The position numbers and the translations under genes were made by a program. Below are positions 1,389 to 23,585 of a stretch of 60,819 nucleotides of DNA, one piece after another (the stretch's first letter is position 1; each line of letters begins with the position of its first letter). The notes beneath the pieces are model-generated. The model saw only the letters and a list, made by a program, of their open reading frames with translations, did no database searches and was not told where the DNA came from. This DNA comes from an uncultured Butyrivibrio sp. (GTDB taxonomy: Bacteria > Bacillota > Clostridia > Lachnospirales > Lachnospiraceae), in NCBI GenBank assembly GCA_946546925.1, contig CAMNOS010000003.1:1-60819 (forward strand), in the 5' to 3' direction.

Positions 1389-4300
1389 TTACCTTTTCTT
1401 TTTTACGACATTGCCATAGAACTTTTTGAATTCAGCCTTACAGTAATCCTTTGCCTTGATCCCCGGACCAAAGAAGGGCTTAAAATCCTCATCAGTGGCA
1501 AATGCATTATCAATTGTACCTTCATATACTCCTCTGGCACTTATAATAGCTGACAGGAAGTTCATCCACTGTGCGGCTCCATACTTTCTCTTGAGTAATC
1601 CATCCTCCATAAGTTCTTCCAGGTCCTCTTTTCTTCTGTGAAGCAAAAGTTCATTCAAGTTAAAATCTTTCGAAATAGGATCTTCTATGAGCGCAGGTAT
1701 CTTATTGTACCAGTCACTTGCTGCCTGAAGGAACTTCAACCGGTTAAGCACGCCTTCAAAATCATCGTATGCAAACAAAGACATCTTGGAAACCTTTTCT
1801 TCTTCGCTCTCATCCGTAAAAGAATCCTGAAGCTCTTTGTAAAGCTTCCTGTAAGCTTTAAAAATGTTCTCGGCATCCATGGCCATAACACAGGCAAACC
1901 TCAGCTTCATCTTTGCGGGAGACATGAGCTCTTTTATATCACCAAACTCAAATTCACTTATATCAAAGCTGAACAGGGTATCAAATACGTGGTTCATCTC
2001 CTCAACACGCTGTGCAAACTGTGGGAATTCAGTTTTCGGATCAAAACCGGCAGTGAGCTTCTTGTAACTGTCAAGAGCCATCTCCGACTTCTTATCTTCT
2101 GTCAGCTTAACCTTTTCTCCGGTGCCATCGTCATATCCATCCACATTATCAAGATAGGACATAATATTGACCATTGCCCGGTAAGTTCTCTCGGGTATCG
2201 ACGCGTCTTTCCTGGCCTTTTCTTCTTCACTCAGGACAAAGAACTCCTTGTCATACTTATAGAGGATCTCGTCGTATTCCTTGTTATATTCCTTACACGT
2301 TTCCTGCAAAGCGGGGAATTCTGCTTGCCATAAAGGCTCCTCCTTTTCCCATTTGATTTCTCTGTCACTAAATGCCTGCTCGTTCTTCAAAGCTTTCTCA
2401 GGGGAAGTCTTAAACCCGTATATCTTCGAAAGCATTCCATTTGCGGCCTGATATTTCGTAAGGGGTCTCGTTTCGTCTATACCTGCAACAAATATAAGGC
2501 TCCTGGGTAAAGATGCCACTACGTCATAAGCCTCGTATTCAGCCTCTGGCAGCTTCATAACATCAATCCCGTTTATCCTGTCTGACATTGCCTGAATCTT
2601 CTGATGAGATAAATTCCCCATCTCATACAGTGAAAAAGAATGAAGATATCTGTTGCTTGTGCGCTGTGAAATTCCGGTACCTCTTCCTGCCATTATTGAC
2701 TGTCCGAAAGAATAAAAAACCATTCCCTTGCTCATCATATCTTCTGCGGAATCAAACATATCAGGGATTTTCAGCGCCCCATCGGATTTTTCCACCAGTT
2801 CTTTTACATGTTTCAGGCTGTCTCTGAGTCCGTCAGAGGCAAGTTTTGCCAAACGCTCCTTAACTTTGAAATTGTCTACAAGTTTCCCAAAATCAGATGC
2901 ATCATACATATTGAGATCGCAGTTCATGACCTCTTTAATGAGCATTGTTTCATATTCATACTGCTGCTCATCTGTTCCTGTCGAGAGTTCAAACAGGCGC
3001 CTTACTTCTTCACCCGATTTGCCACCTATCATTGCACCAATTGTTCTTCCATGAGATGATTTTTTCCCGGTCGTCTTTTCAAGATACTCACAATAGGTAC
3101 TGGAAGGCTCAACCAGGAAATTAGCCTCAATTGCTCCCTTGCAGATACTATCCTGCATTATGGCATTTCTGTTGTATTGTTTTTTTCGTCTCTCAAGCTC
3201 AGCAGGGGGAATCTCTTCATTACCATCTGCAAGAAGAAGCCTGTATGTGATCTTTATGTTTTCGTCCTTCATCGCATCTTCTTCTGCATAAGTTTCCCTG
3301 TATTTGTTATATGTAACAGCCGGATAGCCTGGGGTAAATATATAGAACTTAAATCCGGTCGTCTCCTGCACATTGAGTTTAGATGCCAGTTTTTTCTCAA
3401 ATTCTTCCTTCGGAAGACTCATGGATTCCTTATCCACGGCCATAATATGATTGACGGCGCACATAGTCTTTTGAAAACTGTAGAAGAACCCGGTCTTCGC
3501 CCTGAATTCAACCATAGCTGCATCATCAAAGGAAGGATCCTCCCACCCTCTCGCAAGGCCCCGCACCACCTGGCTGTGAAGGTATCTGACTCTTTCACAG
3601 ATCTCGTAGTTATAGTTAAAGTTCTCCACCATATCTATGTAGTTTTTACCTTTTATCGAAGTAATGCTTATACCATTAATCTCATTTATGAGATCCTTCA
3701 TTTTGGCAGCATCGTACTCCGGCTCTTTATAGCCCGGCTGAGCCTCAATATTTCCCTTGAAATTTATGACATTTGAAAGAGCCGTCGCATTCATGGCATC
3801 AGCAATCTTGTTGTTATTAAGCCGTACGTATTCAGCTTTGGAAAGGTCTCTGCGATTGAGATAGTTCTCATTAAGAAGTTCTTTCGTCTTGCCAAGCCTC
3901 AGTGGTTCCTCATACATTTTGAGATAATTCGCACCTTCCTGCGCGTTCTTGAATTTAGGCGCACCAAGAGCATTTACCTTCTTCTGGGACATTCCGTTTT
4001 GCTGCATCATATGCTTTCCGGCAGCATAGACCTTCAAAAGCTTCAGGGCCACCTCATGCTGCTCGTAATCATTGGTACTTGTCACATCCATTGTCAGCTC
4101 TTCGTTATAGTGAGCCACATAATATTTGTCAGTGATCAGCTCCTTTCGGGCTTCATAGTAATATGCAACAGAACGGATCCTATCCAGTTTCTCTTCCATA
4201 ACCGCTCTGTCATCATCTCTGAAAGAAGAAAAATATTTCTCGGCGCCGCACAGTCTGTCAAAGGCTGCTATCTTAGCAGAGAGTTTCTCCAGTTCCGCAG

Positions 4301-18114: not shown

Positions 18115-18533
18115 ACATAGGTTGTCAGTTATTGTCAGACATCAAAAAGTAAGACGATAGCGGGTGTTTGTACCATATAGCAGATTTTGACATGATAGGG
18201 GACCAGTATTATTTTTATACCTGTGGGGGCTCAATTCAAAAAAGACTTCGTACAGTTACAAATATTAGATGGTGTCATTTTATATTGCGCACCATCTAAT
18301 AGTCCGCATATCCTTTTTGTACCATATAGATAGTTTCAGAGCGCTTTGCCCCCAAAATGTCTAGTCCTGGAGATGCTGCAGAAAATTCTGATTGATTTCA
18401 AATTGGGGGCTCATTACAAAAAAATCCCTATGGCGTACACTGCATTGTGTGCAATAGATCCATAGGGATTAAAGATTTGTATTTTTCAGTGGATTTTGTA
18501 ACTGTGAGAGGTGTTTTTTGAGATTGACCCCCA
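18115..18533 (+). repeat. Left copy of a ~420 bp structured inverted repeat
   Basis: Reverse complement of 23151-23585; about 258 bp around 18166-18423 identical by eye; contains two hairpin modules bounded by GGGGG/CCCCC. Confidence 0.92.
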
Positions 18534-18559
18534 AATCGCATTTTATGGATCTGAGAAGA

Positions 18560-21449: not shown

Positions 21450-21715
21450 TTGTCCAAAAACAGAAGTACAAAGTCAAAGGATAGCAAGACATTAAATTAC
21501 CCTTTAAAATCATGATATCACAGATCACAATAAAATTTCAGAAAATTTAATAGATTTTTTATACAAAATTTCATTTTTGATTTCGGTAATTATTTTCATT
21601 TATTTTTAATACTTTTTTATTTTGTCATAATTGAATGGCACAAGCAAAAGGACTAGTATTACTTCAAAGGGGCAATCGGTAATGACGTGTTGCTCCACAG
21701 ATAAACGAGGTGAAA

Positions 21716-22072
21716 ATGAGTCTTTCAGTTGGTGGAATTGGAAATGCATATGGAATGAGCTTCATCCAGCCTATGAATTACAGTGTAAAGAATCAGGCGG
21801 ATGTCTCAGATGCTTTTATTGAGACGGGAATGAGCGGCGCCATAATGAATGTACCGCCCGTGGTATATCCCAACGCCCAGGCCGTCCCTTCAGGTGATAG
21901 CGAGAGCAATCCGCTTTCTCTTTCGGCGGGCAGCGTCAGAAAATCCCAGGAGGCCAACAAGCTTTACAACGATGTGGCAGCCAGATTTGAAGGTATGACG
22001 ACAGGCTATACACAGAGCACTGAGGGAATATCCTATGGTATGAGCGGAAGCAGAGTAGATCTCTTCGCCTGA
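21716..22072 (+). CDS. Small hypothetical protein
   Basis: MSLSVGGIGNAYGMSF...; RBS-like GAGGTG upstream; hairpin with T-run downstream. Confidence 0.65.
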   Translation: MSLSVGGIGNAYGMSFIQPMNYSVKNQADVSDAFIETGMSGAIMNVPPVVYPNAQAVPSGDSESNPLSLSAGSVRKSQEANKLYNDVAARFEGMTTGYTQSTEGISYGMSGSRVDLFA

Positions 22073-22157: not shown

Positions 22158-22202
22158 ATCTTAAACAAATCTTAAGAATTTTCGACGGTAAATCTTAAGA
22201 AT
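22158..22202. promoter_or_regulatory. Phased direct repeats (operator-like)
   Basis: ATCTTAAACAA / ATCTTAAGAAT / 12 nt / ATCTTAAGAAT upstream of 22326; perfect 14-mer AAATCTTAAGAATT at 22167-22180 and 22190-22203. Confidence 0.5.
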
Positions 22203-22325
22203 TATCTGCTAGTATTTCTTTTGTGCAGTTCTGCACTTTCTTGGCATATCGCCGGAAAATCATTTTTTACAGTATTGCGATGCCGGCGGCTATGGCCATT
22301 GTGGCATCCAAAAGAAAGGACAAGT

Positions 22326-23114
22326 ATGAATATAATTAGTAAGCTGGAGGCAGAGAAAGCTCGCTTGGAGTCGCAAATTGCCAGGGAAACCTATGACTTC
22401 GAGATGGCGAATTATCCTGAGGGCCGCCTGAATATCAAACAGGCTGGAAAGTATTACAAAATGTATCATGTATATAGTACCCCGACTGGCACAAAAAGGA
22501 CTTATATCAAGAAGAAAAACATAGACCTGGCCCAGTGTCTTGCTCAGAAGGCATACAAAAAAACTTCTATCCAGGCTCATAAGAAGGAATTGCAGGCTAT
22601 AAATGCATATCTTAGATATTATCCCAGAAAGTCGCCGGATGACTACTTTAGGAATTCTTCTGAATACAAAAGACTGCTTGAGGATTTCATTCCTATATCT
22701 GAAGCATATAATGATTGGGCGTGTGAAGAGTATGAACGCAATCCGGAGTACCCGGAACGGCTGATTTATCCGACCATGAAAGGTGATATGGTCCGTTCAA
22801 AATCAGAAGCGATGATAGCCGATGAATTCTACAGGCGTGGGATTCCATACAGATATGAGTACAAGACTACAATTGGTGGATATGATGTGTATCCGGATTT
22901 TACTATCATTGACCCAGTGTCCGGAAAGACTTACATTTGGGAACATTTTGGCAAGATGGACGACGATGATTATGTTAACAAATGTATCTGGAAGCTGCGC
23001 TTGTACCTGAGCAATGGCTATATTCCGCAAGTCAGTCTGTTGACGACTTATGAAACCGGGATGGACCCACTCACCTCTGTCAGAGTAGTTGAGACAATAG
23101 ACCAGTTTTTCTAG
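22326..23114 (+). CDS. Solo PD-(D/E)XK-like nuclease-domain protein
   Basis: RSKSEAMIADEFYRRGIPYRYEYKT...VYPDFTIIDPVSGKTYIWEHFGKMDDDDYVNKCIWKLRLYLSNGYIP: E...D...ExH arrangement after a coiled-coil N-terminus; RBS AAAGGA before ATG at 22326. Confidence 0.75.
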   Translation: MNIISKLEAEKARLESQIARETYDFEMANYPEGRLNIKQAGKYYKMYHVYSTPTGTKRTYIKKKNIDLAQCLAQKAYKKTSIQAHKKELQAINAYLRYYPRKSPDDYFRNSSEYKRLLEDFIPISEAYNDWACEEYERNPEYPERLIYPTMKGDMVRSKSEAMIADEFYRRGIPYRYEYKTTIGGYDVYPDFTIIDPVSGKTYIWEHFGKMDDDDYVNKCIWKLRLYLSNGYIPQVSLLTTYETGMDPLTSVRVVETIDQFF

Positions 23115-23150
23115 AGCGCAAAACAGGTCAAAATAGCTGGTGCAAGCACT

Positions 23151-23585
23151 TTGGGGGCCAATCTTAAAAAACACCTCTTACAGTTACAAAATCCACTGGA
23201 AAATACGAATTTATAATCCCTATGAATTGATTGTATGCAATGCAGTGTACTCCATAGGGATTTTTTTTGTAATGAGCCCCCAATTTGAAATCAATCAGAA
23301 TTTTCTGCAGCATCTCCAGGACTAGACATTTTGGGGGCAAAGCGCTCTGAAACTATCTATATGGTACAAAAAGGATATGCGGACTATTAGATGGTGCGCA
23401 ATATAAAATGACACCATCTAATATTTGTAACTGTACGAAGTCTTTTTTGAATTGAGCCCCCACAGGTATAAAAATAATACTGGTCCCCTATCATGTCAAA
23501 ATCTGCTATATGGTACAAACCCCCGCTATCGTCTTACTTTTTGATCTCTGGCTGCCTGCGTCTGACAATAACCGACAGCCTAAGT
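23151..23585 (-). repeat. Right copy of the ~420 bp structured inverted repeat
   Basis: Reverse complement of 18115-18533; carries ~14 extra nt (CTCTGGCTGCCTGC) near its outer end. Confidence 0.92.

Follow-up and report, generated by a model that had tools for sequence, protein, structure and literature searches.

A solo PD-(D/E)XK-like nuclease adjoined by arrays of locus-specific inverted repeats: a candidate enzyme-and-site system of gut and rumen bacteria

In an uncultured Butyrivibrio sp. (GenBank assembly GCA_946546925.1), the gene for a small PD-(D/E)XK-like protein adjoins an array of imperfect inverted repeats, and gene and repeat probably make up a two-component system in which a PD-(D/E)XK-type nuclease is paired with its own cognate DNA sites. 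Shown here, at the level of compared sequences, are an association of gene and array, site sequences particular to each locus, helical phasing of the sites, selection on their half-sites, dispersal within genomes and co-occurrence in orthologues. The 60,819-nt stretch of contig CAMNOS010000003.1 that was analysed is referred to as the window throughout. A preliminary description of this DNA had suggested a nuclease paired with an element of its own. Homologues throughout the family are associated with arrays next to them, which bears this pairing out, and neither finding named there as refuting it, the lack of such an association or a fold other than PD-(D/E)XK, was obtained; copies of the repeat are, however, also dispersed without a nuclease gene.

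The nuclease gene, its product and its relatives

The gene was found where the preliminary description had placed it, on the forward strand and preceded by a conserved promoter region:

22158..22219, + strand: promoter region with CTTAA/CTTAAG boxes and a TGCTA..AT -10-like element, conserved in two syntenic orthologues
22223..22236, + strand: short hairpin GTGCAGTTCTGCAC in the 5' leader, predicted from sequence
22326..23114, + strand: nuclease gene, 262 aa, in two parts (N-terminal, residues 1-100; C-terminal, about 145-262)

Neither a transposase nor a methylase gene was seen in the surrounding few kb, in keeping with the earlier remark that no transposase or restriction partner is nearby. 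The promoter resembles the leader of a PDDEXK_2 gene that this genome also carries, and the 5' leader of the nuclease gene folded no better than shuffled sequences. Close to the locus in three congeners there is a counterpart (72-75% identity) of the 120-aa ORF at window positions 21710-22072 (+ strand), for which Pfam yielded nothing above cut-off. An Rfam scan of the window returned tRNA and GA-cis only, with no family at the nuclease locus; the GA-cis RNA (RF02987; 14834-14923, - strand), over its gathering score, is distant from that locus.

Searches with the 262-aa protein (P0001) against Pfam, NCBIfam and PDB sequences gave nothing usable, nor did PHROGs, from which weak matches only were obtained; Pfam likewise had no match for 46 members taken as a family, and the family is without a matching Pfam or NCBIfam model. 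The AlphaFold2 model of P0001 was confident (pLDDT 93), with an N-terminal part composed of a helix (3-27), three strands (34-60) and a long helix (63-98), and a C-terminal part (H159-170, strands to 202-208, H214-229, E238-242) whose elements follow the PD-(D/E)XK order. Model and Foldseek neighbours agree on the alpha-beta-beta-beta-alpha-beta core of the PD-(D/E)XK superfamily. Against viral models, Foldseek returned Holliday-junction resolvases, TnsA-N, Vsr, DUF2726 and restriction enzymes (prob 0.9-1.0), and against the PDB weak matches of the same kind (3ijm, MunI, XisH, cap-snatching and R2 endonucleases). No confident match was obtained in a fold search with the N-terminal domain, for which reason an impression of an integrase-arm-like sheet was dropped. 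All 46 members matched the C-terminal region of the PADLOC profile PDC-S68 (E=8.7e-29), the match being confined to positions 1090-1218 at the C-terminus of this 1221-aa profile.

Seventeen residues are invariant in the alignment of the 46 homologues (S158, K159, E161, Y177, E178, D191, F192, W205-D212, Y216 and E243), falling into the blocks R/S-K-S-E161, Y-E178, D191-F and W-E206-H-F-G-K-M-D; the KSE...YPDF...WEHFG core singled out in the preliminary description is thus conserved. Among them are the acidic residues E161, D191 and E206. The position two after E206 is F208, not lysine, so that the canonical ExK lysine is displaced (E206-H-F), a role in which the invariant K159 or K210 could substitute. 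The model, its nuclease fold neighbours and the PADLOC PD-(D/E)XK models support the earlier assignment of P0001 as a PD-(D/E)XK-like enzyme, with nuclease activity presumed from conservation because the usual catalytic lysine is off its canonical place.

A match to the nuclease was present in 101 of 299 sampled genomes of the host's taxonomic family (about a third), at up to seven matches per genome and roughly 27-45% identity. Further relatives were found in Treponema and other Spirochaetes, Fibrobacter, Anaerovorax and Helcococcus. The distribution is patchy, and some congeners lack the gene. No relative was confirmed among the viral contigs searched; phage and plasmid records gave partial matches only, mostly to the nuclease domain, and the plasmid carriers of this domain are annotated as RecD-like helicases or AAA ATPases.

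Arrays of inverted repeats at the window and beside homologues

The repeat next to the nuclease gene is an array of four to five ~41-bp sites of the TTTGGGGGC...TATGGTACAAA type, each conforming to TNTGGGG(G)NC, about 20 nucleotides and then TACAGTTACAAA or TATATGGTACAAA, with halves that are imperfect inverted repeats. The first site starts at 23150, 35 nt past the stop codon, in line with the distance of ~36 bp given before. The G5 modules (GGGGGC/GCCCCC) of the preliminary description are real, and the inverted arms at 23149-23190 and 23424-23465 (42 nt) are 79% complementary. The sites of the array and of a second copy, copy B, are as follows:

23150..23190, + strand: array site 1, 41 bp, TTTGGGGGC...ACAGTTACAAA
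23244..23284, - strand: array site 2, 41 bp, ATTGGGGGC...TATGGAGTACACT
23330..23370, + strand: array site 3, 41 bp, TTTGGGGGC...TATATGGTACAAA
23424..23464, - strand: array site 4, 41 bp, TGTGGGGGC...ACAGTTACAAA
23479..23519, + strand: tentative fifth site, diverged, TGGTCCCC...TATATGGTACAAA, picked by eye, with a 55-bp offset as at two other loci (L004 and L194, below)
about 18146..18535, - strand: copy B of the array, 96% identical, without an adjoining nuclease gene
18222..18262, + strand: copy B site
18316..18356, - strand: copy B site
18402..18441, + strand: copy B site equivalent to site 2, placed by aligning both copies
18495..18535, - strand: copy B site

Diverged copies in which site and spacing are kept occur elsewhere in the genome, on contigs C96, C121, C151 and C256. 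On C121 (locus L007), a copy at 1346-1843 lies immediately upstream of a PDDEXK_2 (PF12784) gene (ORF 1844-3031), which is possibly co-regulated with the window nuclease or a second enzyme tied to the repeat. On C151 (L004, 1-300), an unrelated ~235-bp repeat with the palindrome GCATCCCCTTGCTTGCAAGGGGATG occurs twice beside the window-repeat copy.

A search of congeners with the neighbouring EAL gene led to two orthologues of the window nuclease in syntenic position; in several species the neighbours abut without a nuclease gene. One orthologue (L194 in genome G326, 52% identical) is followed directly past its stop codon by four window-type sites at spacings of 93.5/55/85.5 bp, against 93/86/93/55 bp in the window. 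The other (L193 in G303, 50% identical) has three TTGGGT...AGAGGTAT sites downstream, spaced 73 and 88 bp apart, the second spacing only partly in phase. At a syntenic locus devoid of the nuclease gene (L195 in G318), the L194-type pattern detected no site, an absence that is weak evidence because the same pattern missed the sites of L193. Nuclease and sites thus co-occur in one clear orthologue and, less clearly, in a second. A DNA search for the window repeat in 60 congeners returned none at E<=1e-6 and is not evidence of absence, since it missed the diverged, clearly related sites of L194.

Many homologues across the family are flanked, before or after the gene, by short inverted-repeat arrays whose sequence is specific to the locus. 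When arrays were counted as at least two pairs of one 8-mer plus its reverse complement per 1-kb window, 27% of the 1-kb windows just upstream and 23% of those just downstream scored positive, compared with 0-3% of windows 1-4 kb away, 0% within the gene and 0/710 shuffles. A second criterion combining 6- and 7-mers detected an array within 1 kb at 25 of the 31 loci with full flanks, as opposed to 1/31 at 1.9-2.9 kb and 2/31 at 2.9-3.9 kb. Overall, 52 of 78 loci were positive by this criterion; the 26 that were negative in the automatic test include some with contig ends or degenerate repeats. Arrays were equally frequent upstream and downstream of the gene, the downstream position being that of the window and its orthologues. 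The expectation that homologues would be followed by the window's repeat therefore held for the presence of an array but not for its sequence: each homologue has its own, with site ends made of locus-specific words (e.g. TGGG.. or TACGGATAA), and the window's site type is shared by its syntenic orthologues only. Site similarity correlated weakly with identity of the N-terminal domain (Mantel r=0.17, p=0.001), more so than with that of the C-terminal nuclease domain (r=0.11, p=0.02), lending weak support to the N-terminal domain as the part that may set site specificity. Counts of TGGGTA...TACCCA across the family genomes gave few with at least three matches, four of which had the nuclease; the exception (G005) has identical pairs 2-3 kb apart, read as the ends of an insertion sequence.

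Helical phasing, conservation and dispersal of the sites

Within an array, the separation of half-sites is nearly constant, with a median outer footprint of 37.5 bp. Distances between like half-sites fall at 41-42, 51-53, 61-64, 71-75, 82-86, 93-96 and 103-106 bp, and a Rayleigh test peaked at 10.5 bp (R=0.65, n=69 de-duplicated distances, p about 3e-13), also when one value per array family was used (n=34, R=0.77, p about 2e-9). This spacing rule is common to sites of unrelated sequence in different bacteria. For the window's site type in its own genome, the centre distances of 93, 86, 93, 55, 156, 212 and 250.5 bp (six distinct values) were not significantly phased as such (R=0.45, p=0.29); with one fitted dyad offset of 0.9 bp they correspond to 9.03, 8.02, 5.07, 14.86, 20.02 and 24.03 turns (p=0.0013, the offset being refitted in the null). 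Multiples of ~10.5 bp are what would be expected of a protein bound to one face of duplex DNA; neither an RNA nor a single-strand hairpin would be expected to show them. We therefore argue that the sites would be recognized as duplex rather than as folded single strands, and the hairpin or RNA recognition envisaged in the preliminary description is not favoured, the sites having the look of duplex-DNA binding sites set in helical phase.

At the nuclease locus of five Treponema-type genomes, half-site columns were 94.6% identical, compared with 52.1% for site interiors and 58.2% for the rest; columns were chosen on the strength of a full site in one or more of the genomes, which brings in some bias, too small to account for 95% versus 52%. 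The alignments thus show purifying selection on the half-sites. Conserved half-sites were also found at an orthologous dispersed cluster in three Treponema-type genomes. Since the gene neighbourhood is conserved, the Treponema locus has been inherited vertically, which is not needed of a purely selfish element and counts against the reading proposed below. In one Treponema-type site (L081, about 3700-3750), both arms have undergone an identical base change (ACGGAGAA...TTCTCCGT), as though matching were maintained.

Dispersed clusters number from one to a dozen per genome in Treponema-type bacteria and other Lachnospiraceae. In genome G103, one pattern retrieved 86 units that repeat at exactly 52 bp and form six clusters, and the reversed control retrieved 0. 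The linker GCTCCGG is common to 6/6 of these arrays, and two 27-nt site interiors each recur on two contigs, suggesting movement or conversion of units between arrays. One G103 contig, C9, holds satellite-like bacterial DNA of about 30 tandem 52-bp units (L121, 3300-5800) and further clusters between surface-polysaccharide genes. Genome G365 has three-site elements with spacings of 92 and 41 bp in both orientations.

A proposed partnership, its rivals and known systems

We propose that the sites, imperfect inverted repeats of about 35-41 bp clustered beside the gene and in a few intergenic regions elsewhere in the chromosome, are bound by the nuclease itself, most likely as a dimer through its N-terminal domain. 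Several dimers would align on one face of the DNA and bind cooperatively along the array. Nicking or cutting inside arrays, followed by repair from another copy, could then duplicate units and spread them between arrays, and the outcome would resemble a REPtron, with an unrelated enzyme at its centre. The wider generalization is one we advance tentatively, as falling somewhat short of an even chance, namely a class of repeat drive in which PD-(D/E)XK nucleases spread phased site arrays chromosome-wide by cutting and repair from copies, each paralogue owning its sequence.

Chief among the alternatives is that regulation or defence is served here, with the arrays tuning or tethering the enzyme. 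As operators or regulatory elements only, they would let the protein or another factor control its own and a few dispersed genes, while the nuclease serves, for instance, in phage defence. Arrays that often stop just short of the start codon, the conserved CTTAAG promoter and the homology of the nuclease domain to the PADLOC phage-defence candidate PDC-S68 would fit such a role, and helical phasing is typical of regulators. We nevertheless consider it unlikely, as arrays lie as often downstream as upstream (downstream in the window and its orthologues), the tens of tandem units in the G103 arrays are beyond operator needs, and dispersed copies occupy varied intergenic places.

That the repeat is instead a MITE or transposon remnant moved by an unrelated enzyme, such as the PDDEXK_2 protein of the same genome, with the nuclease as a bystander, would account for the dispersed copies, for copy B as a recent duplicate in inverted orientation 5 kb away, and for the copy just upstream of the PF12784 gene. 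This reading is improbable in view of the same kind of site at the same place beside the syntenic orthologue of another species, of a family-wide association with differing array sequences that is unexpected for a bystander, and of constant spacing, which is a pattern other than transposon-end anatomy.

We give very little credence to the repeats as RNA elements (guide-like or attenuator) that partner the nuclease as omegaRNA does TnpB: single-strand folding of the window repeat does beat shuffles (z=-3.75) and the arms of the L081 site changed in step, but independent sites are helically phased, occur in both orientations on either side of the gene and have freely diverging interiors, with no Rfam family at the locus. 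Equally far-fetched is a part in chromosome organization or partition, with a site-specific DNA-binding protein marking regions and the nuclease fold structural; the arrays are centromere-like in layout, and vertical inheritance and the half-sites kept at the orthologous dispersed cluster would suit it, but none of the 46 homologues departs from the catalytic-type acidic residues and the family is patchy, missing from some congeners and from most genomes sampled.

Of the known systems, the proposed nuclease-site partnership most invites comparison with the REPtron, in which TnpA-REP/RAYT, an HUH tyrosine enzyme, acts on single-stranded REP with a GTAG motif and is accompanied by REP/REPIN/BIME repeats (PMC8266576, PMC8049555, PMC6006769). 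In both, one chromosomal enzyme gene lies by its own palindromic repeats, which are also dispersed intergenically, and enzyme and repeat co-vary. Unlike the REPtron enzyme, P0001 has no HUH motif and no Pfam match; its sites are not preceded by a GTAG-type tetranucleotide but have locus-specific ends, and they are phased by the duplex helical repeat in arrays that may reach a 52-bp-period tandem organization. Rpn/PDDEXK_2 (PF12784) proteins are likewise solo PD-(D/E)XK proteins (PMC5350276, PMC10327210). The one in the same genome shares the promoter type and adjoins a repeat copy, but P0001 itself has no match to PF12784 or PF04754. We know of no array association for Rpn. The PADLOC candidates PDC-S68, PDC-S69 and HEAT_CxxC_PDDEXK have a homologous nuclease domain, but are mostly large proteins with that domain C-terminal (~1200 aa for full-length PDC-S68, versus 262 aa in the window), and the solo family differs from them in its own N-terminal domain and its arrays. 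Tn7-like transposons encode the PD-(D/E)XK protein TnsA and have arrays of TnsB sites at their ends. TnsA-N is among the viral Foldseek matches and binding sites are clustered here too, if only putatively; no TnsB or TnsC was seen, however, and the sites form many clusters per genome rather than the ends of a single element. From TnpB/omegaRNA the system differs in its PD-(D/E)XK-like rather than RuvC-type fold.

In a search of the open-access literature, no description of such a system was found, and this enzyme-plus-repeat system of gut and rumen bacteria appears to be undescribed so far. A widespread, unannotated nuclease family would thereby be linked to an apparently undescribed class of repeats, each enzyme arriving with its predicted binding sites. 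If confirmed, the system would be a non-HUH counterpart of REP/RAYT and would bear on the origin and upkeep of intragenomic repeat populations, and its dozens of natural enzyme-site pairs may open a way into the evolution of DNA specificity.
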